NCBI RefSeq assembly: GCF_030693775.1
Contig: NZ_JAUXZY010000005.1
Location: 248,001-312,000, forward strand
DNA: 64,000 nt
Origin: Polynucleobacter sp.
GTDB taxonomy: Bacteria > Pseudomonadota > Gammaproteobacteria > Burkholderiales > Burkholderiaceae
Direction: 5' to 3'
Under the pieces are notes generated by a model. The model was not told the origin of the DNA. It ran no database searches and saw only the letters and a list, made by a program, of their open reading frames with translations. Position numbers and translations under genes: made by a program. This document shows, one piece after another, positions 22,465 to 40,878 of the stretch (position 1 is its first letter; the number at the start of each line of letters is the position of its first letter).

Positions 22465-23808
22465 TTAGTCAGCCTGTTTCCGCAGAAAAGCCGGAATTTC
22501 ATAGAAATCCGCCCCTTTATCCAGCATGGTTTTGGCCTGTGGCGAGCTATCTGCACCCAAGGTTGGCGCACTGCTCGGCTCTGAACGGGACCGAAATACC
22601 CGTGGCAAATCATATTGGCTATAGTCGACCCCGGCCGGCTGGGCTGGAGCAGCGCCAAATGCATTGCCACTAGCTGAAGCCATCCCTGCGCCAGAACCCA
22701 CTGCCGAAATAGTGGAATCCATACCTGCCATGCTCATTGCAGCCGATGGGCTAGATGGAGCAAAGCTATTTAAGTCAGCCATCGTAGGCATTGCATCGTG
22801 TGTACCCGTTGCTTTACGCCAAATGACTTCGGGCTGGCTTTTTTGCATGGCTTGGGGGTGATTAAGGCCTGTCGCTACCACCGTAACGCGCAAGGCATCG
22901 CCCAAACTATCGTCGTACACCGTACCAAAAATGACCGTGGCATCATCCGCGGCATAACCACGAATGGCTGCCATGACTTCACGTGTTTCCGATAACTTGA
23001 GGGAACGGCTAGCAGTAATGTTGACCAAAACACCACGCGCACCCGATAGATCAACACCTTCCAACAGGGGCGATGCTACTGCTGCCTCTGCGGCCAAACG
23101 AGCGCGGTCCATTCCAGAAACAGTAGCAGTTCCCATCATGGCTTTGCCCTGCTCGCCCATCACCGTCTTCACATCTTCAAAGTCGACGTTAATCAAGCCT
23201 TGGACATTGATGATTTCAGCAATGCCTGAAACGGCATTATGTAAAACATCATCAGCGCAGGCAAATGCTTTATCAAACTCGGCATCTTCACCCATGACTT
23301 CGAATAACTTCTCATTGAGAACAACGATGAGCGAATCGACATACGCCTCTAATTCATGCGCTCCATCTTCTGCCACCTTTAAGCGCTTAACGCCCTCAAA
23401 ATCAAATGGCTTACTAATGACACCAACTGTCAAAATTCCCATTTCCTTGGCGACTTGAGCTACGATGGGCGCAGCGCCCGTACCGGTTCCGCCGCCCATA
23501 CCAGCGGTAATGAACACCATATGAGCGCCCTGCAATGAATCCGCAATCCGAGCGCGGGCCTCTTGTGCAGAAGCTGCGCCAATTTCTGGTTTTGCACCTG
23601 CGCCAAGACCGCTTGAGCCTAATTGCAAGTTAATCGATGCCGCGGAGCGCTGCAATGCACCCGCATCCGTGTTCATGCAAATAAATTCCACTCCGTCCAC
23701 ACCGCGACGAATCATATGCTGGACAGCATTGCCACCAGCGCCCCCGACTCCAACCACTTTAATAATGGTCTTGCCGGCTAAATCTTGATCTACCATTTCG
23801 AATTCCAT
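22465..23808 (-). CDS. ftsZ: Cell division GTPase FtsZ
   Basis: 447-residue tubulin homologue that forms the Z-ring. The nucleotide-binding loop VGVGGAGGNAVQHMI, the tubulin signature GMGGGTGTGAAPIVA, and NVDFEDVKTVM (T7 loop) are present. A variable Ala/Ser/Met-rich linker (~320-415) leads to the conserved C-terminal peptide FYEIPAFLRKQAD, which binds FtsA and, in other species, ZapD and MinC. GAGG lies upstream of the ATG. It is the last dcw gene, 46 bp after ftsA. Confidence 0.99.
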   Translation of the reverse strand: MEFEMVDQDLAGKTIIKVVGVGGAGGNAVQHMIRRGVDGVEFICMNTDAGALQRSAASINLQLGSSGLGAGAKPEIGAASAQEARARIADSLQGAHMVFITAGMGGGTGTGAAPIVAQVAKEMGILTVGVISKPFDFEGVKRLKVAEDGAHELEAYVDSLIVVLNEKLFEVMGEDAEFDKAFACADDVLHNAVSGIAEIINVQGLINVDFEDVKTVMGEQGKAMMGTATVSGMDRARLAAEAAVASPLLEGVDLSGARGVLVNITASRSLKLSETREVMAAIRGYAADDATVIFGTVYDDSLGDALRVTVVATGLNHPQAMQKSQPEVIWRKATGTHDAMPTMADLNSFAPSSPSAAMSMAGMDSTISAVGSGAGMASASGNAFGAAPAQPAGVDYSQYDLPRVFRSRSEPSSAPTLGADSSPQAKTMLDKGADFYEIPAFLRKQAD

Positions 23809-23854
23809 AAACCCTCCTGAGTTACTTAGTTACATTGACGACGACGAAAAAAAC

Positions 23855-25087
23855 TTAAAAATTACCCGCGAACCATTCCTTCATTCGCGAAAAAACACCT
23901 TGAAAAGAGCCGGATTGCGATACGCGACGACCCCGCATCAGCTGCGCCTGACCTTCCATTAAGAGTCCAATGCCCGTTGAAAAGCGTGGACTGCGTAATA
24001 CCTCATGAAGATGGCCGCGGTACTCTGGGGTTCCAATTCGTGCAGGCCTCAAAAAAACCTGCTCTGCTAACTCGACCATGCCAGGCATCAAGGAGGTGCC
24101 GCCCGTCAGAACAATGCCTGACGAAACCATGCCCTCATACCCCGAGTCACGCACAACCCCCAATACCAAAGTAAATAATTCTTCGACGCGTGGCTCAATC
24201 ACCGCAGCGAGAGCCTGCTTTGAGATCGGCCGTGGTTCGCGATCACCCACACCAGGCACATCGATCATGGCAGTGGAATCCGCCATATCTTGGCGGGCAA
24301 TTCCATAATGAATTTTGAGGTCTTCGGCCTCTACCGTCGGAGTGCGTAATGCCATTGCAATGTCATTGGTAATTTGATCGCCTGCAATCGGAATTACCGC
24401 GGTATGGCGAATCGATCCTTGGCTGTAGATTGCAATGTCCGTTGTACCGCCACCAATGTCGACTAACACCACACCAAGCTCTTTCTCATCATCCGTAAGG
24501 ACTGCAAGACTAGATGCAAGGGGTTGCAGAATGAGATCGTTCACCTCTAAACCACAGCGTCGAACACACTTCACAATATTTTGGGCCGCACTCACAGCGC
24601 CGGTAACAATATGAACCTTCACTTCCAAACGCAGTCCACTCATGCCAATTGGCTCGCGCACATCTTCTTGCCCATCGATGATGAATTCCTGAATCAGGAT
24701 ATGCAGAATTTGTTGGTCCGTCGGAATGTTGATGGCCTTTGCTGTCTCCAGTACACGCTCTACATCGGTGGAGCCCACCTCTTTGTCCCGGATGGCAACC
24801 ATGCCACTCGAGTTAAAACTAAAAATATGATTGCCTGCAATGCCAGTAAAGACCTGAACAATGCGACGATCCGCCATGACCTCGGCTTCCTCGAGCGCTT
24901 TTTGAATCGATTGCACTGTGGCCTCAATGTTGACCACAACGCCCTTCTTCAAACCCTTGGACGCGGTTTGGCCAACGCCAACCACATTAAATTGCCCATC
25001 CGCATCAAGCTCAGCAACCAAAGCAACTACTTTTGATGTGCCAATATCAAGACCGACCAAAAGGTCTCGGTTATCCTTACTCATCAA
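23855..25087 (-). CDS. ftsA: Cell division protein FtsA
   Basis: 410-residue actin-family protein that tethers FtsZ to the membrane. The phosphate-1 motif is GLDIGTSKVVALVAEL, phosphate-2 is VLVDIGGGTTDIAIY, and adenosine-site GGTSLMPGMVELAE follows. The end KEWFAGNF is the amphipathic membrane-targeting helix. The ORF track begins MMSKDNRD; either Met could start. It is 18 bp after ftsQ. Confidence 0.98.
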   Translation of the reverse strand: MMSKDNRDLLVGLDIGTSKVVALVAELDADGQFNVVGVGQTASKGLKKGVVVNIEATVQSIQKALEEAEVMADRRIVQVFTGIAGNHIFSFNSSGMVAIRDKEVGSTDVERVLETAKAINIPTDQQILHILIQEFIIDGQEDVREPIGMSGLRLEVKVHIVTGAVSAAQNIVKCVRRCGLEVNDLILQPLASSLAVLTDDEKELGVVLVDIGGGTTDIAIYSQGSIRHTAVIPIAGDQITNDIAMALRTPTVEAEDLKIHYGIARQDMADSTAMIDVPGVGDREPRPISKQALAAVIEPRVEELFTLVLGVVRDSGYEGMVSSGIVLTGGTSLMPGMVELAEQVFLRPARIGTPEYRGHLHEVLRSPRFSTGIGLLMEGQAQLMRGRRVSQSGSFQGVFSRMKEWFAGNF

Positions 25088-25105
25088 ATTTCCTCATGAT
25101 TAAAT

Positions 25106-25963
25106 TCACCGTTGTACCCCACTCTTTTTTGTATCGAGCTCGGGCTTTTTGTTAGCCGCACTAGCAAGGTGTATTGCAAATCCATTGCCGTACCGTAAAT
25201 CAATTGCATCAACACGGCCCGTCAGGCGCTCTTGTGCCTTTGGCCAGTATTCAATGAGGCGAGCAACACGCTCTTCGGTTAAGGCTTTGCCTTGGGCCTC
25301 CTCATCGCGGCCAAATTCCACACGGATGCCATTGGATAGCTTCACGCTCCAGGAATACCGATCCGATAAAGTAACGCCAACAACGTCGACATTCCAAGGC
25401 GCAAACCAACGGGTCGCTTTTTGATAGAGTTGCATGACTTCTTTGCTCGAGTCATTCGGCCCCGATACTTCAATTAAATGGGAAGGGTCGTCGACCTGCG
25501 AAAGGCTGCCGCTAAATACTTCGCCAAAACCATTCATGAACTTTTGCTCGCTGCGGTTACCCCATATGGCAAATGGCTTTTGCTCTTCGATACTCACGGC
25601 GATGCCATTCGGCCATACGCGCCGCACACTAGCGTGGCGAACCCATGGCAGATCTTCAAACGATTCTTTGATGTTTTCGAGGCGTACTGTAAAAAAGTTA
25701 CCTTGGACTTGTTCCAGTACTTGATTTTTTACTTGGGATAAATTGACGTGTTTGACAACTTGTCCTGGTAAGGGCTCAACTTGCATTTGGCGTAAGGCAA
25801 AAACAGGTCGCTGGCTTAGCCACATTAATCCTGCAACTGTTGCCAGCAGAAAAAAGAGACGCATTAACCAACGACTCACTTCGGTCATTCGCGCAGGATT
25901 ATTCAGCAAAGGTGTTGACATACCTAGGAGAAAATGGAATGAGCGCTTCGCTAAATTACTCAT
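25106..25963 (-). CDS. ftsQ: Cell division protein FtsQ
   Basis: 285-residue bitopic membrane protein of the FtsQBL divisome complex. A cytoplasmic N-terminal stretch is followed by a membrane helix ([19 protein letters not shown]), a POTRA domain beginning at [14 protein letters not shown], and the periplasmic beta domain with [29 protein letters not shown]. The start at MSNLAKRSF overlaps the ddlB stop in an ATGA, typical of this operon. The ORF-track start 11 codons earlier lies inside ddlB. Confidence 0.95.
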
Positions 25964-26952
25964 TGCCTTACATCCATTGTTTGGCTTAATAACCACAACA
26001 CTAAATCGGCGTAACTCACGCCTGCTGCTTTTGCTGCCATCGGCACTAGGGAATGGGATGTCATGCCAGGGGATGTATTCATCTCCAATAAATACGGTGT
26101 GCCATCGCGGCTATCCAACATCACGTCCGCACGACCCCAGCTACGGCAACCCAATGCACGATAAGCAGCCAGCGCTAGGGCTTGAACCTTTTGGTTAACC
26201 GCCTCATCCAAGCCAGTAGGGCAACAGTATTGCGTATCGTTTGAGAAGTACTTATTGTGGAAATCGTAATTGGCATCTGGTGGAACAATCCGAATGACTG
26301 GCAGCGCTTCGGCGCTTTCCCCCTCACCCACCAATGGGCAAGTCAGTTCATCACCAATAATGCAAGTCTCTGCAATGACTTTGGTATCCAAAGCGGCTGC
26401 TTTTGCATAGGCGCTCGGAAGCTCATCTACGGTTTTGACTTTGGTTAAACCCAATGATGAGCCTTCATGGGCTGGCTTGACGATCAATGGTAAGCCCAGG
26501 AGCTTTGCTACTGCAGTCCAATTGCTTTGAGGCGTTAGCTCTTCGAATTCAGGTGTTGATAAACCATTACTGAGCCAGATTTGCTTGGTTGCAATTTTGT
26601 CGATGGATAGCGCGGAAGCAAGGACACCACTGCCGGTATACGGAATTTCCAGCAACTCAAGCAAGCCCTGAATCGTGCCATCCTCGCCATACCGGCCATG
26701 CAGGGCAATAAAGACCCGATCAAACCGTTCCTTCGAAATCTCAGTAGGGCTGCGCGTACCGGGATCAAAGGCGTGCGCATCAACCCCTTTTTCCAGTAAA
26801 GCGCTTAAAACACCATTGCCCGACAAGAGGGAAATTTCCCGCTCGCCTGATTTGCCACCGAGCAATACTCCGACCTTACCCAAATCACTCGGCTTAAGCT
26901 TAGCAAGATCAGTCTTGACTCGCTCTCCCCAGGGCATCGTGCGATTAAGCAT
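25960..26952 (-). CDS. ddlB: D-alanine--D-alanine ligase
   Basis: 330-residue ATP-grasp enzyme that makes D-Ala-D-Ala for peptidoglycan. Signature segments are [21 protein letters not shown] (~25), [15 protein letters not shown], the [18 protein letters not shown]-grasp loop and [17 protein letters not shown] near the C terminus. The start at [10 protein letters not shown] overlaps the murC stop by 8 bp; MPWGER five codons on is possible. It joins murC and ftsQ in the dcw cluster. Confidence 0.96.
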
Positions 26953-28384
26953 GCTGCGCTCCCGATAGAATAGCGGGCAACGTGGATATGGATCCGGCGC
27001 CCATCGTAATAACCACATCACCATCACGCAGCATGGTCGTAATCGCTGCAGGCATATCCGCTACTTTGGCTATGTAAATAGAGTCGGCATTCTGTAGCAA
27101 TGCTGACTTGGCTTCAGCGTCATTACTGCAGGTTGCTTTAAAGAGACTCTCCCCATCAGCACCTTTGATGCGGGGCTCTCCGGCGGGATAGACATCCGTC
27201 AACACCAAGGCATCGAAGCCGCGCAACACATCCACAAAGTCACCAAAACAATCGCGTGTTCGGGTATAGCGGTGGGGCTGAAATGCCAAAACCAGTCGGC
27301 GACCCGGATAAGCCCCACGTGCTGCCGCCAAAGTGGCTGCCATTTCAACGGGGTGGTGTCCATAATCATCGATTAAGGTAAAACTTCCACCCTTTGCCAA
27401 TGCAATATCGCCGTAGCGTTGGAAACGCCTACCGACGCCGCCAAACTCCGATAAAGCTTTGACAATAGCTTCATCGCGTATACCCAATTCAGTCGCTATA
27501 CCAATCGCAGCAAGCGCATTGCGCACGTTATGCAATCCCGGAAGGTTCAACTCGATTTGCAAGGGTCCGGGCTTAGCGCCATGACGCCGAATCGTACGGC
27601 GCTCCACCGTAAAGCGCATCCGCGTTCCGTCGGCCTGAATGTGGTGCGCGCGGATGTCGGCATCATCAGCAGTGCCGTATTTCAGAATAGGTTGCGATAC
27701 AAATGGGATTAGATCCCGCACGTTGGCATCGTCTGCACACACAATCGCAATGCCATAAAAAGGCATGCGCTGCGTAAATTGCACAAACGCTTGCTTGAGG
27801 CGCGCCATATCATGCTGATAGGTATCCATGTGATCGGCATCAATGTTGGTGATGACTTCCATCGCCGGAAATAACTGCAAGAATGAGGCATCCGATTCAT
27901 CTGCCTCGACCACAATAAAATCGCCCTGCCCCAAGCGTGCATTGGCATTGGCTGAATTGAGTTTTCCGCCAATTACAAATGTGGGATCAAGCCCGCCCTC
28001 AGCGAGCACCGAAGCAACTAAACTGGTCGTTGTGGTTTTTCCATGCGTTCCTGCAATCGCAATGCCTTGCTTTAAGCGCATCAGTTCACCCAGCATTACT
28101 GCCCGCTGAATAATCGGAATTTTTGCAGCGCGTGCAGCAATCACTTCAGGATTGTTGCCAGCGACTGCTGTTGAAATCACCACGGCCTCAGCAGTACCAA
28201 CATGACTCGCCTTGTGGCCAATCTGAATATCGGCACCTAGCCCACGCAAGCGTTTCGTTGTCGCGCTTTCAGCCAAATCGGAACCCGAAACTTGGTATCC
28301 CAAATTGAGCAGTACTTCGGCAATGCCGCTCATGCCCGCGCCGCCAATACCGACAAAATGAATCTGCTGAACAATATGCTTCAT
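26945..28384 (-). CDS. murC: UDP-N-acetylmuramate--L-alanine ligase
   Basis: 479-residue Mur ligase that adds L-Ala to UDP-MurNAc. The N-terminal domain has [21 protein letters not shown], the P-loop is [16 protein letters not shown], and the MurC-specific [14 protein letters not shown] and FQPHRYTRT sequences are present. Length matches the family. The start overlaps the murG stop in an ATGA. Confidence 0.98.
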
Positions 28385-29454
28385 TTATTTGCTCCTGCAG
28401 ACTCGGCGCATATGGCTGCCACGCGCTCGGTTGCCTGCATCTTTGCTAGAGTGCGAGCACGCTCTGCCATTGCCATTAGTTCAGGGCGCCGTAAAGTTTG
28501 TAACCAAGCAGCCAGTGCGCTTGGATTAAGCTCAGTTTGTGGCCACAACTTAGCGGCATCTGATCTTGATAAAAACGCTGCATTGGCTGTTTGGTGATCA
28601 TCAATGGCAAATGGAAATGGCACGAAGCAAGCGGCAACGCCGCAGGCAGCAATCTCCGATACGGTCATTGCACCCGAACGGCATATGATGAGATCGGCTG
28701 CAGCATACGCCTCTGCCATGTCGCCAATAAAGGCGCGAACATCTGCAGTAACCCCGTAATCAGCATAGCGCTGCTTGAGTTCAGCGACGTGTTTTTCACC
28801 CGCCTGATGCAGCACCTGAGGCCTTTCCTCAGCAGGCATCAGGGCTAACGCAGCGGGAATCGTTTCATTTAGGGCGGCGGCACCCAAACTACCACCAACA
28901 ACCAATAATGTCAGGCGGCCAGTACGCGCGCCGTAACGCTCAACAGGGGATGCGATTGATTCAAACTCACTGCGAATCGGATTACCAACCCACTCGCCTT
29001 CGGGCAACGTATTCGGAAATCCCGTCAGGGTTTTAGTCGAAATCCTGGAGAGATAGCGATTGGCGCTGCCAGCAACTGAGTTTGCCTCATGCAAAACCAG
29101 TGGTCGCTTCAGCAAGGCGCTCATTAATCCACCAGGAAAAGTAATGTAGCCGCCCATGCCCAGTACGACACTGGGCTTGAGCCTACGAATAATCTGCCAG
29201 CTTTGCAAACATGCTCTTGCTAGATTAAAAGGCAGCATTAACTTAGTCAGCAAACCCTTACCGCGCAGGCCGCCAAAATTGACTGCCTCAAACGGAAACC
29301 CGCGACTCGGCACCAAGCGGTATTCCATGCCAGAAGCATTGCCTAACCATGCCACCTGCCAGCCACGCGCACGCAAAAGCTCAGCCACTGCTAATCCGGG
29401 GAAGATATGCCCGCCAGTACCGCCGGCCATGACTAAGATGGAAGGCTGATTCAT
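28381..29454 (-). CDS. murG: Lipid II-forming GlcNAc transferase MurG
   Basis: 357-residue peripheral inner-membrane glycosyltransferase that adds GlcNAc to lipid I. The glycine loops are [20 protein letters not shown] (N-terminal) and [19 protein letters not shown] (C-terminal), with [21 protein letters not shown] for donor binding and [12 protein letters not shown]. It overlaps ftsW and murC by 4 bp at each end. Confidence 0.98.
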
Positions 29455-30686
29455 AACTTGCCTCCCCGCATTAAGACGCGGTTTTCGTAATCAATCTTGA
29501 GCAATACGCCAATAGCAACGGCATTCATCAAAATTCCAGAGCCGCCATAACTAATTAATGGCAGGGTTAAGCCTTTTGTCGGTAATAGGCCTAAATTCAC
29601 CGCCATATTGATAAAGGCTTGCCATCCAATCCAAATACCAATCCCCTTTGCTACCAAACCAGCAAAGCTACGATCTAATTGCAGTGATGTTCGGCCAATC
29701 AGAAAAGCACGGCGCACAATCCAGTAAAACAAAAAGATAATGACGAGTACTCCGGCAAAGCCAAGCTCCTCACCAATTACCGCCAAGATGAAATCGGTAT
29801 GCGCTTCGGGTAAGTAATGCAATTTTTCGACACTGCCACCAAGGCCAGTACCAAACCACTCGCCGCGTCCAAACGCCATCAGCGAATGGGTTAGTTGATA
29901 GCCTTTATTCGCCGCATGATCTGCTGCCCAAGGATCTAGGAATGCAAAAATGCGTTCGCGACGAAATGGTGAGAGAGCGATGATGATGGCGGCGCTGGTA
30001 ATTCCAGCAACCACCAAGCCACCAAATAACTTCACATTAATTCCGCCCAAGAAAAGAATACCAAAGGCAATTAAAGCAATCACTACGAAAGCGCCCATAT
30101 CCGGCTGCCATAGCAGCAATGCGCCAATGATCATGACAGCAACACCCATTGGTACCAAACCCTTCACGAACGAGTGGAGATACTCTTGGCGCTGAACGGT
30201 ATAGCTCGCAGCAAAAATGACAACGGCAAACTTCATCAGCTCCGATGGCTGGAAATTCATAAACCCAAAGGAGATCCAGCGGCGCGCTCCGTTCACGCCT
30301 TTACCGATTCCAGGGATCAGGACTGCAATCAACAATAGGATGGTAATTCCGAATAGAATCGGCGCAAGCTTGTCCCACATCTTTACTGGAATCCGAAACA
30401 CACACAAGCCAACTACCGTGGCAATCGTGAGTGAAATCAAATGCCGAATCAGAAAGTGATTGCTACTGTAGTTTTTATACTTCGGACCGTCGGCTAAGGT
30501 AATCGATGCGGAGTACACCATCACCAAACCAATGAGCGCCAATGAAACGACTGCCCATACCAGCAACTGGTCATATTCCATCATGCGCGAGCGCGTTTGC
30601 TCTACTCCTGTAACGGCATCACGTAAGCCAGTTCGAAAGCCAGTGATACCGCCGCGGGAGTAATTCCAAAAGCGATTAAGGTTCAT
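29451..30686 (-). CDS. ftsW: Lipid II polymerase FtsW
   Basis: 411-residue SEDS-family glycosyltransferase that polymerises septal peptidoglycan with FtsI. About ten membrane helices begin at [21 protein letters not shown]. Conserved SEDS sequences include [52 protein letters not shown] with the [17 protein letters not shown] segment, and [13 protein letters not shown]. The start MNLNRFWNY overlaps the murD stop in an ATGA. Confidence 0.97.
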
Positions 30687-32353
30687 GCGCTTACCCCAGA
30701 CGAACAATCTGCCTCAAGACTAGAGTCGGAAAACTGCATTCCCAGCTCTTCCACCTCAGATACAAATACAGCAGCACGGTGGACGTAATCCTTGAACTGA
30801 TCAAAGCTGGCGCATGCTGGAGAAAGGAGAACCACATCTCCTGAAGTTGCGCGCTCTGAAGCAGTCTTCACTGCGACCGCAATCGTTTCGCAGTGCTCTA
30901 CTACAACGCCGGTTGCTTGCAGCGCATCTTGAATAAGCGGCGCATCCTTACCAATCAATAGAACGCCTTTTGCAAAACGCTGCACTGGATCAAAGAGGGG
31001 CGAAAAATCTTGGCCTTTGCCATCGCCGCCCGCAATTAACCAAATCTTTTTAGAACCGGTTGCGTCGCCAAGGCCATTCAGAGCCGCAACGGTAGCACCT
31101 ACATTGGTTCCTTTACTGTCATCAACGTACTCGACATCCCGAATGACAGCAACGCTTTGTACGCGATGCGGTTCACCGCGGTACTCGCGCAAACCATGCA
31201 GTAATTTATTGAGCGGCAAGCCAACTGCGCGTGCTAATGCCAAGGCAGCCAGGGCATTGAGAGCATTGTGTTTGCCGCGGATACGTAGCGCATCTGCCGG
31301 AATTAAGCGCTTTAAGCGTAGTGGCTCAGCTTCTTCTGCCATCGCTTTGCGTCGCCGCTTGGGCTTTTCTAACTCAGCATTCTCATCCACCTCAGCCCAA
31401 ACTAACCAATCAATTCCTCCAGCCTGAGGATCGCGCTCAATACCAAATGACCCTGGCTCATCCGGCCGATTTGAGCCGAAGTGAATGATCTGCCGATCTT
31501 CTAATTGACTGCTTAGCAAGCGATTTAATTCAACTTCATCCCGGTTCACAATACAAATGCTGCTGGGTCCAAAAATAGCGGCTTTAGCAGTGGCATAGGC
31601 CTGCATATCGCCATGCCAATCCAAGTGATCCTGACTTAAATTGAGAACCGTTGCTGCGCTGGGATTGAGGCTATAGGTAAAGTGCAATTGAAAACTCGAT
31701 AACTCGAGCACCCATAACTCCGGCAGATCATGCAATCCATCGGCGCTATCCAGGCAAGCCATTAGCTTATCCAGTGCTGCGGGGCTAATATTGCCAGCCA
31801 CTGCCGCTGTTTTACCGGCACGCTCACACAACTGGCCCACTAGTGCCGTTGTGGTTGTTTTGCCATTCGTGCCAGTAATGGCGATGATTTTAGGTTGGTA
31901 AGTCCAACCCTCATGGTCCACTACCTCGGCAACCGATTCCCGCTCCAGCGCGGCAATACCGCGGGCAAAGAACTCGATCTCACTCCACACCGGAATACCT
32001 TTTTCCTGTGCTGCTGCCAAAATCGATTGTGCTGGCTCCGCAATTGGCGATAGCCCTGGTGATATGCCAATCACATCAATGTGATCCAACATACTGGCGT
32101 CCCAGCTACCAAAATGCATGTCGGTTAGACCAGCAAGCTCCAGTTCGCTTAGTTGTGCCCGTTGTTTTTCATTGAGGGCGCTTCGCTCGCGCGTATCAAC
32201 CAAGCGAGTATGCGCACCATGACGCAAGCACCATTTCGCCATTGCGATTCCAGACTCACCCAGCCCCAGAATTAAAAAGCGTGTTGGCTCAACTGAGAGT
32301 GCTTGCGCTCTACTCAGCTCAGGACAAATAAATGGATCTTTTACATTGCGCAT
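30683..32353 (-). CDS. murD: UDP-N-acetylmuramoyl-L-alanine--D-glutamate ligase
   Basis: 556-residue Mur ligase that adds D-Glu. Landmarks: FLILGLGESGIAMAKWCLRHG (N-terminal Rossmann), ITGTNGKTTTTALVGQL (P-loop), VLNLSQDHLDWHGDM, KGTNVGATVAAL and LLSPACASFDQFKDY. It is about 100 residues longer than the enterobacterial enzyme. Extra segments include one near 125-150 and a basic/acidic insert (EKPKRRRKAMAEEAE) around 330-350, just before the RIRGKHN motif. It starts 10 bp after mraY. Confidence 0.96.
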   Translation of the reverse strand: MRNVKDPFICPELSRAQALSVEPTRFLILGLGESGIAMAKWCLRHGAHTRLVDTRERSALNEKQRAQLSELELAGLTDMHFGSWDASMLDHIDVIGISPGLSPIAEPAQSILAAAQEKGIPVWSEIEFFARGIAALERESVAEVVDHEGWTYQPKIIAITGTNGKTTTTALVGQLCERAGKTAAVAGNISPAALDKLMACLDSADGLHDLPELWVLELSSFQLHFTYSLNPSAATVLNLSQDHLDWHGDMQAYATAKAAIFGPSSICIVNRDEVELNRLLSSQLEDRQIIHFGSNRPDEPGSFGIERDPQAGGIDWLVWAEVDENAELEKPKRRRKAMAEEAEPLRLKRLIPADALRIRGKHNALNALAALALARAVGLPLNKLLHGLREYRGEPHRVQSVAVIRDVEYVDDSKGTNVGATVAALNGLGDATGSKKIWLIAGGDGKGQDFSPLFDPVQRFAKGVLLIGKDAPLIQDALQATGVVVEHCETIAVAVKTASERATSGDVVLLSPACASFDQFKDYVHRAAVFVSEVEELGMQFSDSSLEADCSSGVSA

Positions 32354-32363
32354 CGTCTACTGA

Positions 32364-33533
32364 TTACCGTAATTTCAAGCTAGATAAACCAACCAGCACC
32401 AATAAGATAGTGATGATCCAAAAACGAACAACGACTTGGGTTTCGCGCCAACCACCCAGTTCAAAATGGTGGTGCAGTGGTGCCATCCGAAAAATGCGGC
32501 GTCCTTCGCCATAGCGTTTTTTGGTGTATTTGAACCAAATCACCTGCATCATCACGGAAACCGTTTCGGCAACAAAAATACCGCCCATCACAAACAAAAC
32601 AATCTCTTGGCGCACAATCACCGCAATGGTTCCAAGGGCGCCGCCTAGAGCTAAAGCGCCAACATCGCCCATAAAGACCTGTGCAGGATGGGTGTTGTAC
32701 CAAAGGAAGGCGAGGCCCGCGCCGCCCATGGCGCCGCAGAAAATCATCAACTCACCTGCCCCAGGAATAAATGGAAACAGTAAATACTTCGCGTAGATTG
32801 CGTTACCCATTACATAGGCAAACGCGCCCAGTGCAGCCCCGACCAAAATCACGGGCATGATGACCAGACCATCAAGGCCATCCGTTAAATTGACTGCGTT
32901 ACTGCTGCCAACAATTACCAAGTAACTCAAAATGATGAAGCCCATCACTCCCAGTGGATAGCTAACTTCTTTCACAAAGGGAAGATAGAGGTTTGATTTG
33001 GCTGGTAGGTCCAATGAAAAACCGCTCTGCACCCAGTCAATGAATAACTGCAGCACTTTTAAGTTGTTAACCTCAGATACAGAGAATGCCAAATAAATTG
33101 CAGCAAATAATCCAATTACGGTTTGCCAGAAAAACTTTTCGCGCGACGCCATTCCCTTTGGGTCTTTGCGAGCAACTTTGCGGTAATCGTCAACCCAGCC
33201 GATCAAGCCAAAGCCAAATGTAACCAGCATCACAATCCAGATGAATCGATTGGTCAGGTCAGCCCATAAAACACATGAGGTAAATATGCCAATCAGAATG
33301 AGCACACCGCCCATGGTTGGCGTTCCTGATTTGACTAAATGCGTTTGTGGTCCATCAGTACGAACTGCCTGACCCATTTTTAACTCAGTCAATCTCCGAA
33401 TAACCCAGGGCCCCGAAATCAAACCAATCAACAATGCCGTCAATGTCGCCATCACGGCGCGGAAGGTAATGTAATTAAATACTCGGAAAAAACTGTAATC
33501 GTCTTGTAACCACTGCGCCAAGATTAAGAGCAT
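32364..33533 (-). CDS. mraY: Phospho-N-acetylmuramoyl-pentapeptide transferase
   Basis: 389-residue ten-helix membrane enzyme that makes lipid I from UDP-MurNAc-pentapeptide and undecaprenyl phosphate. Conserved sites: [47 protein letters not shown], and [14 protein letters not shown], followed by [12 protein letters not shown] in the HHH loop. Start and length agree with the betaproteobacterial enzyme. It overlaps the murF stop by 10 bp. Confidence 0.98.
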
Positions 33534-34966
33534 GCTTTAACCTCCGCCAGCGTGTCTTTTAACGCCGCTACTACTCGCTCCATGCGCATAAAACGTGATC
33601 CTTTTACTAGTACTGCATAGGGCTGAGATACTGAGGCGCCCTCAGAAAATAAATCGGCAACGGTCACCGCCCGTGCGTTTAAGGCGTCGATGCTTTCAAA
33701 ATGGATTGCCGCATTACTACTTCCGATGCGTCCATTGAATTCATTAAAGCCGCGTACTGAAGCCTGCGTTTGCTCTCCTAGCGCCCATAAGTGCGCAATG
33801 CCACGCTCTGCCGCATAGGCGCCAACCTCATAATGAAACTCTGGGCCATTTGATCCCACTTCACCCATGTCACCCAGGACCAAACAGGTTTTTTGGCTAG
33901 CCTGACTAAGGGCGTCAATTGCAGCGCGTACTGAGTCGGGATTGGCGTTATAGCTGTCATCAATCAACAGGCAAGTGCCCAATTGGTTTGCCATCATTCG
34001 GCCGCTGACCGCCTGAAATGATTCCAATCCAAGGCGAATAGCCTCTAAATCTACCTTTGCAGCTAAGGCTACAGCCGTCGCGGCAAGGGCGTTACGCAGA
34101 TTGTGCTCACCGAGCACGGAAAGTCGAACATGGATGATTCCGTCGCTTGTTTTTATTTCAAGCGCACCGTCTTCCAAGAGCATGCCACTAACTGCTGCAG
34201 GGCCATTGAGTGCAAAGTCAATGTAGCGGCGCCCGCTGGCTTTTTTGCGCCACTCGGCACTAAACGAAGTGTCTGCTGGAAAAACCGCAACACCATCTGC
34301 TGGCAACGATGCAATTGCATCCGCATGCTCATGCGCAACCGCATCAACGGTCTCCATAAATTCTTGGTGTTCCCGCTGGGCATTGTTGATAAGCGCAATT
34401 GTTGGCTTAGCGATATTAGCAAGGTAGGCCGTCTCGCCCGGATGATTCATTCCGAGCTCAATCACAGCCAATCGATGGTGCTCACGCAAACGCAATATCG
34501 TCAGCGGCAGTCCAATATCGTTATTCAAATTGCCTGGCGTAACCAGAGTTGCTTCTTTACCTACTGCCGCGCTAAAGATAGCTGCGATCATCTCTTTCAC
34601 GGTAGTCTTGCCGTTACTACCAGTTACCACCACTAGCGGTAATGTAAATTGCTGCCGCCATGCTGCAGCAAAATCACCTAAACCAATTCGCGTGTCAGCA
34701 ACGCATACTGCGGGAAGCTGATTTGGGCACGCCTTCTCATCTTCAATCAGTGCGGCGCTTGCTCCGGCAGCACTAACCGCGCCTAGGAATTGATGCGCAT
34801 CAAAGCGCTCGCCCTTAAGTGCGATAAAGAGGGACCCACCCTCAATCGCCCTACTATCCGTAGAAATGGAATCGATTAGATAGCTTTGCGCAGCCGCCTT
34901 AGAAATATTGATCAATTTACTGGATGGTAAAAATGCATGGATTTGGCCCAAGGTAGTCATCGCCAT
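33524..34966 (-). CDS. murF: UDP-N-acetylmuramoyl-tripeptide--D-Ala-D-Ala ligase
   Basis: 480-residue Mur ligase that completes the cytoplasmic pentapeptide precursor. The P-loop is [16 protein letters not shown], followed by [28 protein letters not shown] and [16 protein letters not shown], all MurF-specific. The start Met overlaps the murE stop by one base (TAATG); the third codon is another ATG. Confidence 0.97.
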
Positions 34967-36507
34967 TAGACGGAGCCTCCACTAGCCAATAAAACATGTT
35001 CTTGATCTGAAAAATCTACTTTTCTGCCATTAATCTCTTGGCTTGTTTCGTGGCCCTTACCTGCAATCAATACAACATCATTCACTTCTGCGTGCCGAAC
35101 TCCGCTAAGGATCGCTGCAGCACGATCTAGGATGACTTGTACTGACTTGCCATTACCCATTCCAGCTTGAATATCGGCGCTGATTTTTTCTGGATTCTCG
35201 GAGCGTGGGTTATCGCTGGTCAAAATAGTATGGTCAGCTAACTCTGCCGCAATCTGCCCCATGAGCGGTCGCTTGCTCGCATCGCGATCACCGCCACAAC
35301 CAAAAATGCACCACAACTTTCCTGCTCGCTGGCTTGCGATGGGGCGCAAGGTACTCAATACTTTTTCTAGTGCATCTGGGGTATGGGCGTAGTCAACAAT
35401 AACTAATGGGCCTGTGCTACGTGAGTTGCCGAGCACCATTTCCATTCTTCCGCTGACTGGCTTTAAAAGTGCAATGCGCTTACCTGCCTCAATCACATCC
35501 ATGCCACTAGCCAATAGGCAGGCCCAGACTGCAAGGCAATTACTTAGATTAAAGTCGCCCACAACCGGAACATTGACTTCAGTCCTGCCATGGTCTTGCC
35601 ATTCAAATACACCCTGATAGCCATAATCCTTAAACTGCATGCCGCTTGAAAAAATAGCATGCAGTCGCTTACCGAACTTTTCAAAGCCGGCAAAGACCTT
35701 GTGGTCAACCGCATAGCCCCACACCTGAACGCCTGTCTTTGCCAACATCTGCATGGCTAATTCACGACCCAAAGGATCTTCTAAGTTAATGACCGCATTC
35801 TGTAAGCCAGGGAACTGAAACAAACGAAACTTGACTGCTGCATATTCCGCCATACTGCCGTGGTAATCCAAGTGGTCTTGACTCAAATTGGAAAACACAG
35901 CGGTGCTGAATTGGACGCCATGAACGCGTCCCTGTTCTAGGGCGTGTGAAGAGACTTCCATGGCAATTTGCTTTGCATTGGAATCTAAAAGTGTTTTGAG
36001 TTCGGTTTGTAAGCGTGCAGCATTTGGCGTGGTGTAGCCTGTTGCCTCTAAATGCCCTGGAAAACCAATACCTAAGGTACCGATTACAGCTGCACGCGAC
36101 TTAGGGCGATCTAAGGCTTGAGAAAGCCATTGCGTAATGCTCGTCTTGCCATTCGTTCCAGTTACCCCAAACACCATCATCTGACTGCTCGGCTTACCGT
36201 ACCATTCAGAGCAGATTGGCCCCGCATGGGCAGATAAATTTTCTAGCGGGAAACAACGTGGATCACTCAAGGCTGGAATTTCTTCTAAATCCCTTAGGTC
36301 ATAAATAACCGCAGCGACCCCAGCATCTAAAGCCTCTGCAATGTAGGCGCGGCTATCCTGTATGGCAGCACCATGCCCTACCCGGTAAGCAAAAAAGATA
36401 TCGCCCACCTTGATTTGCCGTGTATCGCTCACGATGCGCGCCGTTGGCAAAGCCAATCGCCGTAGGTGATCGATGGCTTGCTCTGGCTTAATGAAAGTAG
36501 CCATCAT
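34966..36507 (-). CDS. murE: UDP-MurNAc-L-Ala-D-Glu--meso-diaminopimelate ligase
   Basis: 513-residue Mur ligase. The P-loop is GVTGTNGKTSITQWL; the substrate loop SDNPRSENPEKI carries the DNPR motif that marks meso-diaminopimelate rather than lysine specificity, as expected for a Gram-negative. Further signs are TTPNAARLQTEL, EVSSHALEQGRVHG and IVDYAHTPDALEKVL. It overlaps the ftsI stop by 4 bp. Confidence 0.98.
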   Translation of the reverse strand: MMATFIKPEQAIDHLRRLALPTARIVSDTRQIKVGDIFFAYRVGHGAAIQDSRAYIAEALDAGVAAVIYDLRDLEEIPALSDPRCFPLENLSAHAGPICSEWYGKPSSQMMVFGVTGTNGKTSITQWLSQALDRPKSRAAVIGTLGIGFPGHLEATGYTTPNAARLQTELKTLLDSNAKQIAMEVSSHALEQGRVHGVQFSTAVFSNLSQDHLDYHGSMAEYAAVKFRLFQFPGLQNAVINLEDPLGRELAMQMLAKTGVQVWGYAVDHKVFAGFEKFGKRLHAIFSSGMQFKDYGYQGVFEWQDHGRTEVNVPVVGDFNLSNCLAVWACLLASGMDVIEAGKRIALLKPVSGRMEMVLGNSRSTGPLVIVDYAHTPDALEKVLSTLRPIASQRAGKLWCIFGCGGDRDASKRPLMGQIAAELADHTILTSDNPRSENPEKISADIQAGMGNGKSVQVILDRAAAILSGVRHAEVNDVVLIAGKGHETSQEINGRKVDFSDQEHVLLASGGSV

Positions 36508-38270
36508 TGTGTTAACACGACGCGTTGAATTGGCGCAGCTGTAGCGGGCTTAATCGCATCATCTCGCTGCACCATATTTTTAACTGTGCTATCCGGCGCA
36601 ACATTCATTGCGCGAAGCGTTTCAGAAACAATAGTTGAGAAAATAGGCGCCGCAACTTGGCCGCCATAGTAACCATTTGCAGTGGGCTCATCGACCATCA
36701 CTGCCACCACAATCCGTGGGGCGCTCATCGGCGCAATACCCGTGAAATAAGCTAAGTATTTATTGGTGGCATAGCCCTTGCCTGCTACCTTATGGGCCGT
36801 ACCTGTTTTACCGCCAACGCGATAACCCTCAGCGTGGGCTTTCAGCGCAGTACCCCCAGGCTCAGTTACCGACTCCAACATGCTACGCATCTCGATTGCT
36901 GTTTTTGCCGAGATAACGCGTGTACCGGGTTTGTAATCTGGGCTATGTTCTATCGTGACCGGAACCAACTCGCCATCGCGAGCGAAGATGGTGTAGGCGC
37001 GAGCCATCTGAAAAAGTGAGGTTGATATGCCATAGCCGAACGCAATCCGCGCTTGATCAGTTGGCATCCATTTTTGATGGGGATGCACCCGGCCCGCAAC
37101 GGCACCGGGAAATCCAACCTTGGGAGCTTGACCAAATCCAACAGCAGTAAATAAGTCCCACATTTCGCTGGCTGGCATATTCATTGCCAACTTAGAGGTA
37201 CCAATATTGCTGGATTTTTGGATTACCTCTGCCACCGTCAGCGATGGATAAGGGTGGGTATCAGTAATAGGTTTAGGTCCAACCAAATACTTAGCGCCAA
37301 TCGCCATCACTGTATTGGGGTTCACTTGCCCTTTTTCCATGGCCAGTGCAACGGTAAATGGCTTAATGGTTGAGCCCGGCTCAAACGTATCGGTCATCAC
37401 ACGATTGCGTAACTGTTCGCCACTTAATATCTTGCGATCGTTTGGGTTATAGCTTGGCCAATTGGCGAGCGCTAAAATTTCACCCGTCTGCACGTTAATG
37501 ACAACTGCTCCGGCCGCTTTGGCGCGATGTTTTTCAACCGCATCTTTCAATGCGTTATAAGCAATGTATTGAATCTTGCTATCAACCGAGAGTTTTAAAT
37601 CCTTGCCGTTTTGCGGTAACTGCAAAACGCCCATATCTTCGACGATGCGCCCCAGGCGATCGACCACAACACGTCGCTTACCGGTACTCGCAGCCAAATC
37701 GTTTTCGCGCGATAGCTCCATCCCCTCTTGACCGCGATCTTCCACATTGGTGAAACCCACTACGTGGGCCATTGCCTCGCCTTCGGGATAAAAGCGACGA
37801 AACTCATTATTTAATCCAATGCCTGGAATTTCTAACTTGCGGATTTGCTGAGCCACTGCAGGATCAACCTGCCGCTTTAAGAAAACTTGGTTACGCTCAT
37901 CTTTTAATTTTTTTCGAACATCAGCTTCACGCATCTCGAGCAAGGCTGCAAGCTGCTTGATTTTTTCATCGGATAAATCTTTTGGAATCGTATCGTTATA
38001 GGCAATCACTGCTTTTGCCTCAAGGCTGGTTGCAATGACTTGGCCGTTGCGATCCAATATTTTTCCGCGGCTAGCCGACATCTCAAGTTCACGCTGCGTT
38101 CCCTTAACTGCCTTGGCCTCGTAGAACGCATTACCAGGACCCTGAATCCAAAGTGCGCGTAGTACAAGGGCAGCAAACGCGACAAACAACATGAACAGCA
38201 TTAAGCGCGACCGCCACATCGGCAGGCGCAACACTAAATTAGGCGTGGTTGAGAATCCGACTCGCTTCAC
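36504..38270 (-). CDS. ftsI: Septal peptidoglycan transpeptidase FtsI (PBP3)
   Basis: 588-residue class B penicillin-binding protein. A short cytoplasmic tail and one membrane helix (LMLFMLFVAFAALVLRALWIQG) lead to the pedestal domain (SRGKILDRNGQVIATS) and the transpeptidase domain with the active-site serine in EPGSTIKPF (SxxK), the SSN motif in QKSSNIGTSKLA, and KTGT in VGGKTGTAHKV. The C-terminal end is short. It overlaps ftsL and murE by 4 bp on each side. Confidence 0.98.
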   Translation of the reverse strand: MKRVGFSTTPNLVLRLPMWRSRLMLFMLFVAFAALVLRALWIQGPGNAFYEAKAVKGTQRELEMSASRGKILDRNGQVIATSLEAKAVIAYNDTIPKDLSDEKIKQLAALLEMREADVRKKLKDERNQVFLKRQVDPAVAQQIRKLEIPGIGLNNEFRRFYPEGEAMAHVVGFTNVEDRGQEGMELSRENDLAASTGKRRVVVDRLGRIVEDMGVLQLPQNGKDLKLSVDSKIQYIAYNALKDAVEKHRAKAAGAVVINVQTGEILALANWPSYNPNDRKILSGEQLRNRVMTDTFEPGSTIKPFTVALAMEKGQVNPNTVMAIGAKYLVGPKPITDTHPYPSLTVAEVIQKSSNIGTSKLAMNMPASEMWDLFTAVGFGQAPKVGFPGAVAGRVHPHQKWMPTDQARIAFGYGISTSLFQMARAYTIFARDGELVPVTIEHSPDYKPGTRVISAKTAIEMRSMLESVTEPGGTALKAHAEGYRVGGKTGTAHKVAGKGYATNKYLAYFTGIAPMSAPRIVVAVMVDEPTANGYYGGQVAAPIFSTIVSETLRAMNVAPDSTVKNMVQRDDAIKPATAAPIQRVVLTQ

Positions 38271-38533
38271 CGATCTTCTCGCAAATAAATGGTTCGATTG
38301 GGTGAGATGGGACTCATATTGAGTTGATTGCGCGCCACATCCCGAATCCGAGCTGATTTAGACAGATTGCGTTGTTCGTATTCAAGGCGAAGCCACTCTT
38401 GATTGAGTTTGCGCTCTTCTATTTGTGCGCGCTCAATTGCAGTAACCAGCTTGCGACCACGCTGCTGTGCCGATACGAGCGATAGCGCACAGATTAGTAA
38501 TAAAGCGAGTAGGGTTAGTGTGGCCCGATTCAT
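38267..38533 (-). CDS. ftsL: Cell division protein FtsL
   Basis: 88-residue small bitopic divisome protein. It has an N-terminal membrane helix ([18 protein letters not shown]) and a periplasmic coiled-coil segment ([31 protein letters not shown]) that pairs with FtsB. Sequence identity in this family is low, so position between rsmH and ftsI weighs heavily. It overlaps both neighbours by 4 bp. Confidence 0.93.
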
Positions 38534-39504
38534 TGGCTCACCTGTCGTCGATAAATGAGGCCGGCCTCTAGACTGCGTTTTTGCGCTACCCGCATTACTG
38601 CTGAACGTGCGCGCGGATTCTCACTAACTTCAACGCTGCTTGGCTTAACTCTAGCAATGAGTTCTAAATCTCCCTGCGGTAAATCTTTTGCACGAATTGG
38701 CAAACCACGTGGCACCTCCACTGCTGAGTGCATTTGCATAAACTGCTTGACGATGCGGTCTTCTAGGGAGTGAAAGCTGATGACAACTAAACGTCCACCT
38801 GGCTTGAGTAAATCCAAGGCTGCTTTCAGCCCACTGGCCAGATCATCTAACTCTTTATTGATGAAGATGCGCAGCGCTTGAAAGGTCCGCGTTGCTGGAT
38901 CCTGTCCTGGCTCGCGTTTTTTAACAACGCCAGCAACCAGGTTGGCTAAATCTAAGGTGGTCGCCAAGGGCTGATTCAATTCACGGCGCGCAAAGATCGC
39001 TTTCGCAATCGGCAAGGCGAAGCGCTCTTCGCCGTAGGTTTTAATTACGCGCGCAATATCATCCACGCCAGCTTGATTCAACCACTGTGCCGCCGTTAAT
39101 CCAGTCGTAGTATTCATGCGCATATCAAGCGGCCCATCGCGACGAAATGAAAAGCCACGCTCGGCTTCGTCTACTTGTGGCGAGCTGATACCCAAATCGA
39201 GCAGCACCCCTGCTACCGATGCAGGCTCGGCATGCTGATCCATGTATGCAAAGCTGCTGTGAACAATCTGAAAGCGCGTGTCGCTTATCTTTTTTGCTTC
39301 TGCAATCGCTTGCAGATCCTTGTCGAATGCAATCAAATTTGCATTGGATGGAATCGCTTCCAAGAGTGCTCGTGTATGACCGCCGCGCCCGAAGGTACCG
39401 TCGATCAAAATGGATTTCTCGGAGGATTCTGCTTGCAATAAAGGACTTTCCAATAGTGCAGTTACCGCCTCGGCCAGTAAGACTGGGCGATGAGTCTGAT
39501 TCAT
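38530..39504 (-). CDS. rsmH: 16S rRNA (cytosine-1402-N4) methyltransferase
   Basis: 324-residue SAM-dependent methyltransferase (MraW) acting on C1402 of 16S rRNA. Landmarks: [14 protein letters not shown], the SAM loop [45 protein letters not shown], and [16 protein letters not shown]. It begins 12 bp after mraZ. Confidence 0.98.
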
Positions 39505-39516
39505 GCGGCCCTGTCA

Positions 39517-39948
39517 TTAATAAGTAAATTGTTTGAGGGCGTCCGGCACACCTTGCATCATTGCGGCCTGCTCTTTTGTTGCGTACGTTGCTGCATCCCA
39601 TAACTCAAGGTGACTACCCATACCAAGCAGAATGACTTCACGCTGAATACCCGCAGCGGATCGTAGTTCGGGGCTCACCAAAATTCGCCCTGCACTGTCG
39701 AGATCAAGTTCGGTTGCATTGCCTAGAAAAATTCGACGCCACCAATGGGCATCCATTGGTAACTGCGCTACACGCGCTCGAAAGGCTTCCCACTCAGGGC
39801 GTGGGAAAACCATCAAACAACCATCGGGGTGTTTTGTTAAGGTCACTCTTCCCTCACCTTGCACGAGCAAGGCGTCACGATGCTTTGCCGGCACAGACAT
39901 GCGGCCTTTTGCATCTAAATTGAGAGCTGACGCACCTTGAAACACCAT
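39517..39948 (-). CDS. mraZ: Transcriptional regulator MraZ
   Basis: 143-residue AbrB-like DNA-binding protein that represses the dcw promoter in characterised bacteria by binding TGGGN repeats. Two copies of the domain are seen: [25 protein letters not shown] (N-terminal) and [21 protein letters not shown] (C-terminal). The listed start is ATG at 39948; the next codon is GTG, giving the common MFQGAS N terminus with a better-spaced GTGGGG ribosome-binding site, so 39945 may be the true start. Three TGGGN-type repeats lie immediately upstream. Confidence 0.97.
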
Positions 39949-39951
39949 TTA

Positions 39952-39976
39952 CCCCACTTTTTCACACTTCTTCCCA
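39952..39976 (-). promoter_or_regulatory. Three MraZ boxes at 10-nt spacing
   Basis: On the minus strand the sequences TGGGA (39972-39976), TGTGA (39962-39966) and TGGGG (39952-39956) recur exactly every 10 nt, the pattern of MraZ sites (TGGGN repeats with 5-nt gaps) known from E. coli and other species. The middle copy has one mismatch. They overlap the predicted transcription start of the mra promoter, which fits autorepression. Confidence 0.8.
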
Positions 39977-40004
39977 CTTTAGAGGAAGGGATTCAGAGGG
40001 TCAA
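39976..40004 (-). promoter_or_regulatory. Predicted mra (dcw) promoter
   Basis: TTGACC (39999-40004) and TAAAGT (39976-39981) on the minus strand are separated by 17 nt; they match the sigma70 consensus at 5/6 and 4/6. The predicted start near 39969 gives a leader of about 20 nt to mraZ and places the MraZ boxes over the -10 and +1 region. Confidence 0.65.
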
Positions 40005-40058
40005 GTGTTTTAATGGGTTTTTTTTGGATTTTCTCTATTGTTTACAGTCACTTAGCGA

Positions 40059-40091
40059 TGACTATTCATTTAAGCTTTTGAAAAATAGTCA
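40059..40091. repeat. Inverted repeat upstream of mraZ
   Basis: TGACTATT (40059-40066) and AATAGTCA (40084-40091) form an 8-bp inverted repeat with a 17-nt spacer, about 55 bp upstream of the predicted mra -35 hexamer. It could bind a dimeric regulator or form a hairpin in a transcript from the upstream promoter. No known factor is assigned. Confidence 0.4.
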
Positions 40092-40161
40092 CCCGAAACA
40101 AGGGCTTGGAAAATATACTTAAGAAGGTATCTTAGATATATTACTTAATTATCTAAATTAA

Positions 40162-40181
40162 TACTGTTTATATATACAGTA
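40162..40181 (-). promoter_or_regulatory. LexA-type SOS operator
   Basis: TACTGTTTATATATACAGTA has the CTGT-N8-ACAG form of the LexA box of E. coli, which betaproteobacterial LexA proteins also recognise, and differs from the ideal E. coli site by one spacer base. It lies 2 nt downstream of a TATAAT hexamer on the minus strand, so a LexA dimer would cover the transcription start. The only downstream gene on that strand is mraZ, about 215 bp away. No gene on the plus strand starts here. Confidence 0.7.
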
Positions 40182-40183
40182 TT

Positions 40184-40189
40184 ATTATA
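40184..40189 (-). promoter_or_regulatory. Candidate -10 box of a second, upstream mra promoter
   Basis: Perfect TATAAT on the minus strand, followed after 2 nt by the LexA-type operator. No good -35 hexamer is seen 16-18 nt upstream (CTAAGG at 17 nt), so the promoter would be weak or need an activator. Predicted start near 40177. Confidence 0.4.
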
Positions 40190-40242
40190 CTTAGAGCGAA
40201 TAATATCCTTAGTTTTATTGGGTTTAGATAATCAAACCCGAT

Positions 40243-40878
40243 TTACACCTTATATGCTGTCGTCGTCATGATTTTGGATATGGCCTCCATGGCATTTTTG
40301 ATGGGCTGCGGCAAAGGCTGGCCGCCGGCATCCCATGCTGATTGGCCGTGATCGATTTCATCGCGGCGCATCTGATCAACAATGGCACGCGAGCGCGCAT
40401 CTGCTAGCGGCAAGGTTTCAAGGTGGCTATTGAGGTGCTTTTCGACCTGCTTTTCGGTTTCCGCAACGAAGCCCAAACTCCATCGATCGCCGGCCAAGCC
40501 AGCCAGTAATCCGATCCCAAAAGAACCGGCATACCAGATCGGATTTAGATAACTGGTGTGCGAGCCGAGCTCAGACAGGCGCTCTTCACACCAGGCCATA
40601 TGGTCCATTTCCTCTTGTGCCGCATGGTCGAGCATGGCGCGTGTTTCTGAGCTGCGTGCCACGATTTTTTGCGATTGGTATAGGGCTTGGGCGCACACTT
40701 CGCCCACGTGATTAACACGCATGAGCCCAGCCGCATGGGCACGTTCAGCAGCATCAAGGGTGCTTGCACTTTCTGCTGTTGGCATTACACGATGGGCCTG
40801 AGCGCCGCCAGCAAGGGATCGCAAAGCGACATCAAACTCCGTAATGAATCGGTCCAGCAATGACATAGGCATGGACAA
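40243..40878 (-). CDS. coq7: Demethoxyubiquinol hydroxylase Coq7
   Basis: 211-residue di-iron monooxygenase that hydroxylates 2-polyprenyl-3-methyl-6-methoxy-1,4-benzoquinol in ubiquinone synthesis; it replaces the UbiF flavoprotein used by E. coli. Iron ligands are in [33 protein letters not shown] and [13 protein letters not shown] hydrophobic hairpin ([15 protein letters not shown]) suggests membrane association. It starts 2 bp after the bioB stop on the same strand, so it is probably read through from bioB. Confidence 0.95.

Follow-up and report, generated by a model that had tools for sequence, protein, structure and literature searches.

A putative LexA operator upstream of mraZ and the division and cell-wall gene cluster in Polynucleobacter

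Introduction

The SOS division inhibitors of the SulA and YneA types are inhibitor proteins, through which DNA damage is coupled to cell division. LexA has also been connected with the division and cell-wall (dcw) cluster itself. According to PMC3265435, which cites Vicente et al. 1998, LexA represses the 5' region of the E. coli dcw cluster through three SOS boxes, and LexA of B. subtilis binds in vitro a site upstream of the mraZ homologue of a Gram-positive gut bacterium (PMC3998124). In view of these two reports, the idea of a link between LexA and dcw is not new. PMC8475190, citing Eraso et al. 2014, reports that MraZ acts as a repressor of its own operon in E. coli and, in Mycoplasma genitalium, of the division cluster. 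For Polynucleobacter, our literature search returned nothing on the SOS response, LexA binding, transcription start sites or expression.

Organization of the mraZ upstream region

The DNA analyzed here, called the window below, is a stretch of 64,000 nucleotides from a Polynucleobacter genome. A predicted LexA operator was found in it between coq7 and mraZ, in the following arrangement:

40243..40878, minus strand: coq7, the upstream gene on the same strand (PF03232, 6.5e-45)
40184..40189, minus strand: TATAAT hexamer pointed out in the first-pass annotation, peculiar to the source genome and unconserved
40162..40181, minus strand: LexA operator (SOS box) TACTGT-N8-ACAGTA, 20-mer TACTGTTTATATATACAGTA, predicted from sequence
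40158..40163, minus strand: candidate -10 immediately 3' of the operator, TATTAA in the source genome
40082..40130, minus strand: conserved non-coding blocks (TCTTAAGTATATTTTCCAAG, TTGTTT) between the operator and Pmra, from the alignment
40038..40058, minus strand: conserved CTAAGTG-TTGTAA element upstream of Pmra, TAAGTGACTGTAA here
39976..40004, minus strand: Pmra, the predicted main mraZ promoter, TTGACC-N17-TAAAGT
39952..39978, minus strand: MraZ-box-like repeats GTGGGA, GTGTGA and GTGGGG, recurring every 10 nt and overlapping the start region of Pmra
39517..39948, minus strand: mraZ, first dcw gene (PF02381, 6e-31)
22465..39504, minus strand: rsmH, ftsL, ftsI, murE, murF, mraY, murD, ftsW, murG, murC, ddlB, ftsQ, ftsA and ftsZ

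The genes downstream of the operator are indeed, as first annotated, mraZ and 14 further dcw genes from rsmH to ftsZ, all on the minus strand; rsmH, ftsI and ftsZ are supported by Pfam and the remaining dcw genes were named from their translations. The operator, with its CTGT-N8-ACAG at 40164-40179, lies about 214 bp upstream of mraZ, and coq7 ends about 60 bp ahead of the box. Pmra and the three repeats, which we take to be MraZ boxes, fall in nearly invariant columns of the genus alignment. CTGT-N8-ACAG occurs once in the window against 0.61 occurrences expected by chance. As a lone match per 64 kb is close to chance, the significance of the site must rest on the rest of the genome and on the relatives.

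The mraZ site among the SOS operators of the genus

Genomes were scanned by pattern search, with the pattern read backwards as a control. Perfect TACTGT-N8-ACAGTA was found four times in the 1.94-Mb source genome, only at recA, umuDC, mraZ and a gene for a DUF4407 protein, whereas the reversed pattern occurred once. Across 31 genus genomes the counts ranged from 0 to 6 (mostly 2 to 4), against 0 to 1 for the reversed control, and the third site, where inspected in main-clade genomes (G004, G018), was that of umuDC. The set of strong SOS operators typically comprises recA, umuDC and mraZ, plus lexA itself. The lexA gene is present in the source genome, with a near-perfect (one-mismatch) TACTGT-N8-ACAGTA site just upstream. 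Of 144 near-complete genomes of the genus, 142 have lexA.

The mraZ site has the CTGT-N8-ACAG palindrome with an A/T-rich core that characterizes proteobacterial LexA operators, and it shares the TA flanks of the recA, lexA and umuDC operators; the operators of lexA and recA in its own genome are of the same type. The 20-mer of the window is identical to the recA operator of a congener (G031). Using a matrix trained on recA, lexA and umuDC boxes only, the site scored 27.8, the training boxes themselves ranging from 18.0 to 28.2. Unlike those operators, it is directed at dcw and not at a repair gene, and some 185 bp separate it from the main promoter downstream.

Two further observations concern other operators of the genus. 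The perfect site before the DUF4407 gene (L004:1501-1516; G000:C1:853911) may mark an additional SOS target. In most sampled congeners, the lexA operator reads CTGTATACAATCCCAG, and a degenerate second site, TATGGACATAAATACAG, comes after it (lexA upstream regions L122-L150); this lexA box is weaker than the recA or mraZ boxes.

Conservation and origin of the operator

The mraZ upstream regions were gathered across the genus, and 96 of them were long enough for scoring. A perfect CTGT-N8-ACAG was present in 79, a CTGG-N8-ACAG variant in five, and neither form in 12, namely 11 basal Polynucleobacter and one decayed site. The perfect boxes lie 220-262 bp (mostly 234-237) from the mraZ start region, a nearly fixed spacing, and with the recA/lexA/umuDC matrix the box scored best among all 20-mers of the upstream region in 84 cases out of 84. 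Read on the other strand, CTGG-N8-ACAG is CTGT-N8-CCAG, the lexA operator form of most sampled congeners, so the variant sites probably still bind LexA.

A set of loci from named records, overlapping with the previous one, gave the same picture. The box was perfect in all 45 untruncated Polynucleobacter-type loci whose MraZ is at least 82% identical, and it was not found in nine more distant Polynucleobacter-type loci, in 22 Burkholderia/Paraburkholderia loci or in any of the sampled Burkholderiales outgroups. This absence from mraZ does not reflect a loss of LexA, given the near-universal presence of lexA in the genus and the fact that two of the more distant genus genomes (G080, G102) retain the same lexA operator type. 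A plasmid search retrieved no related DNA.

The sequence 3' of the box was used to build a tree, on which parsimony gave an average of 0.5 changes per site in the eight CTGT/ACAG positions and 6.25 in the N8 core. The 5' flank gave about 22 changes per column, a count inflated by its gap-free alignment, although a -35 or any other element at a fixed distance from the box would remain visible. The operator has thus been kept in the main clade while its 5' flank diverged. Matching the SOS operators of its own genome, where lexA is present, and conserved in the main clade despite a variable core and variable flanks, the site upstream of mraZ can be regarded with high confidence as a real LexA operator, as the first-pass annotation had suggested. 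The sequences indicate that it was probably gained within Polynucleobacter, a single gain being the simplest history; the operator would have arisen in the ancestor of the main clade and then been held by selection.

One 1.55-Mb single-contig genome (G017; L067, G017:C1:86518-87278) combines a decayed box (TTGG) with a frameshifted mraZ, seen as two matches in different frames.

Promoter at the operator and proposed mechanism

The first annotation had proposed a second, LexA-repressed promoter of the dcw cluster at this site, relying on the TATAAT beside the operator. The operator and its target neighborhood are well supported, but the hexamer is not: it does lie on the minus strand (40189-40184), yet it is not conserved, and the closest relative that was fetched (G010) reads CTATTA at this position. 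There is no conservation 5' of the box, and TATAAT, which has no accompanying -35, was rejected as the -10. A better candidate is the TATATT that abuts the 3' side of the box in most species, although the source genome and its closest relatives have TATTAA, a weak -10. Ahead of the box, the genus alignment shows neither a conserved -35 nor a good one. Mean sigma-70 promoter scores were modest, with 7.7 of 12 toward mraZ versus 6.6 on the opposite strand, and sequence conservation beside the box is restricted to the mraZ side. Because the scores are modest and no -35 is conserved, the promoter at the box is a feature that we infer. Its overlap with the operator and the sign of the effect of LexA are likewise proposals.

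Starting from the observed operator, its conservation, its target neighborhood and the presence of LexA, we infer LexA binding, the direction of transcription and a physiological effect. It is likely that LexA controls mraZ-dcw transcription through this operator. Once bound, LexA would repress transcription that feeds into the mraZ-dcw operon from about 185 bp ahead of the normal mraZ promoter. This transcription would most likely come from a second, operator-overlapping promoter with its -10 within or abutting the box. Upon DNA damage, RecA-triggered cleavage of LexA would release this distal transcription and raise the expression of mraZ and of the dcw genes closest to it. As MraZ represses its own operon elsewhere, expression of the division genes may on balance be re-set for a time; SOS-driven MraZ could lower the output of Pmra while the distal promoter is active.

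Alternative explanations

The operator could also act without any promoter of its own, LexA stopping read-through from coq7 into mraZ until damage lets it extend into dcw. The same-strand coq7 ending about 60 bp before the box, the lack of -35 conservation ahead of it and the failure to find a canonical terminator in 39900-40320 would all suit such an arrangement. However, the conserved TATATT just 3' of the box is unneeded by a roadblock, and LexA is not known to act as a strong one, making this explanation improbable.

A slimmer prospect, raised in the first-pass annotation, is that the operator drives a short SOS-induced leader or small RNA that ends before mraZ and either affects Pmra in cis or works in trans. 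The precedent is UpsM of Rhodobacter sphaeroides, a dcw-leader small RNA for which a long leader upstream of mraZ likewise serves as a stress-linked regulatory region (PMC5089854). A long conserved non-coding stretch does follow the box, and RNAalifold gave a z of about -7.7 against column shuffles for the conserved leader. The consensus fold, however, forms its pairs between DNA elements that do not vary (CTAAGTG and the -35 CACTTG), so covariation support is absent and a conserved RNA structure was rejected. UpsM has an intrinsic terminator, which yields a discrete small RNA, and its paper makes no mention of LexA (PMC5089854), whereas no terminator-like site was found in 39900-40320 of the Polynucleobacter leader. 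The Rfam search was also without a match. Moreover, parts of the conserved TCTTAAGTATATTTTCCAAG and TTGTTT blocks are present in basal species that lack the operator, pointing to blocks that serve something older than the box. We therefore do not favor a short leader RNA.

Transcription running away from mraZ, antisense to coq7, is very improbable: LexA sites are symmetric and there is a weak plus-strand promoter match at the operator, but on the coq7 side conservation is lacking as far as the edge of the box, with approximately 22 changes per column, and the mean promoter score is lower on that strand. That the site is a chance palindrome, a functionless relic or the site of another regulator is equally hard to sustain, since the 0.6 matches expected per window stand against the near absence of change, across the genus, at precisely the bases that LexA contacts, the identity with a recA operator, the presence of lexA and the finding of the decayed site in a genome with a frameshifted mraZ.

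Comparison with known links between SOS and division

Control of mraZ-dcw by LexA would resemble the dcw repression described for E. coli in PMC3265435. In MG1655, however, no CTGT-N8-ACAG was found in 88900-92000, the best candidates being one-mismatch sites inside mraZ, whereas Polynucleobacter has a perfect and conserved site in an intergenic position. On site strength, we rejected E. coli K-12 as a strong parallel; as far as sequence can tell, the Polynucleobacter instance is the stronger of the two and has evolutionary support. The Gram-positive case (PMC3998124) likewise has a LexA site upstream of mraZ but differs in LexA motif and lineage, and is a link independent of the one in Polynucleobacter.

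Like SulA or YneA, the Polynucleobacter operator would couple DNA damage to division; its target is instead mraZ and not a LexA-controlled gene of the SulA family. In 41 genus genomes, no SulA family member scored above the cut-off. SOS and division could accordingly be linked in another way here, although an unrelated inhibitor would also be compatible with this result. A SulA-like match in one genome (G016) fell below the family cut-off and was disregarded. The site had been called unusual among the known SOS links to division. This holds for its target, which is not of the SulA type, but less so for the link between LexA and dcw or mraZ, which is reported in PMC3265435 and PMC3998124.

A speculative and rather unlikely extension is that MraZ itself is the SOS division effector in Polynucleobacter, a genus without a recognizable SulA. 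Damage would then derepress the LexA-controlled promoter, MraZ would accumulate and shut Pmra through the MraZ boxes, and division would be delayed. Such an SOS checkpoint would rely on a repressor of division-cluster transcription, and not on a protein that inhibits FtsZ or FtsW. The mraZ operator places the entire dcw cluster of a freshwater genus in a very small set of genes with strong SOS operators. Whether MraZ or dcw levels constitute a DNA-damage checkpoint is now a directly testable question, for which the basal species without the operator are natural controls.

The element upstream of Pmra has a wider distribution. It reads TAAGNNNTTGT in other Polynucleobacter, including species without the LexA box, and TAAGTCCTTGTTCTA in Burkholderia/Paraburkholderia (22 of 22 loci). 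A TAAGNNNTTGT-type element also precedes Pmra in most other Burkholderiales families sampled and is located about 186 nt before mraZ in loci L260-L282. It looks like an old conserved regulatory site of the dcw cluster.
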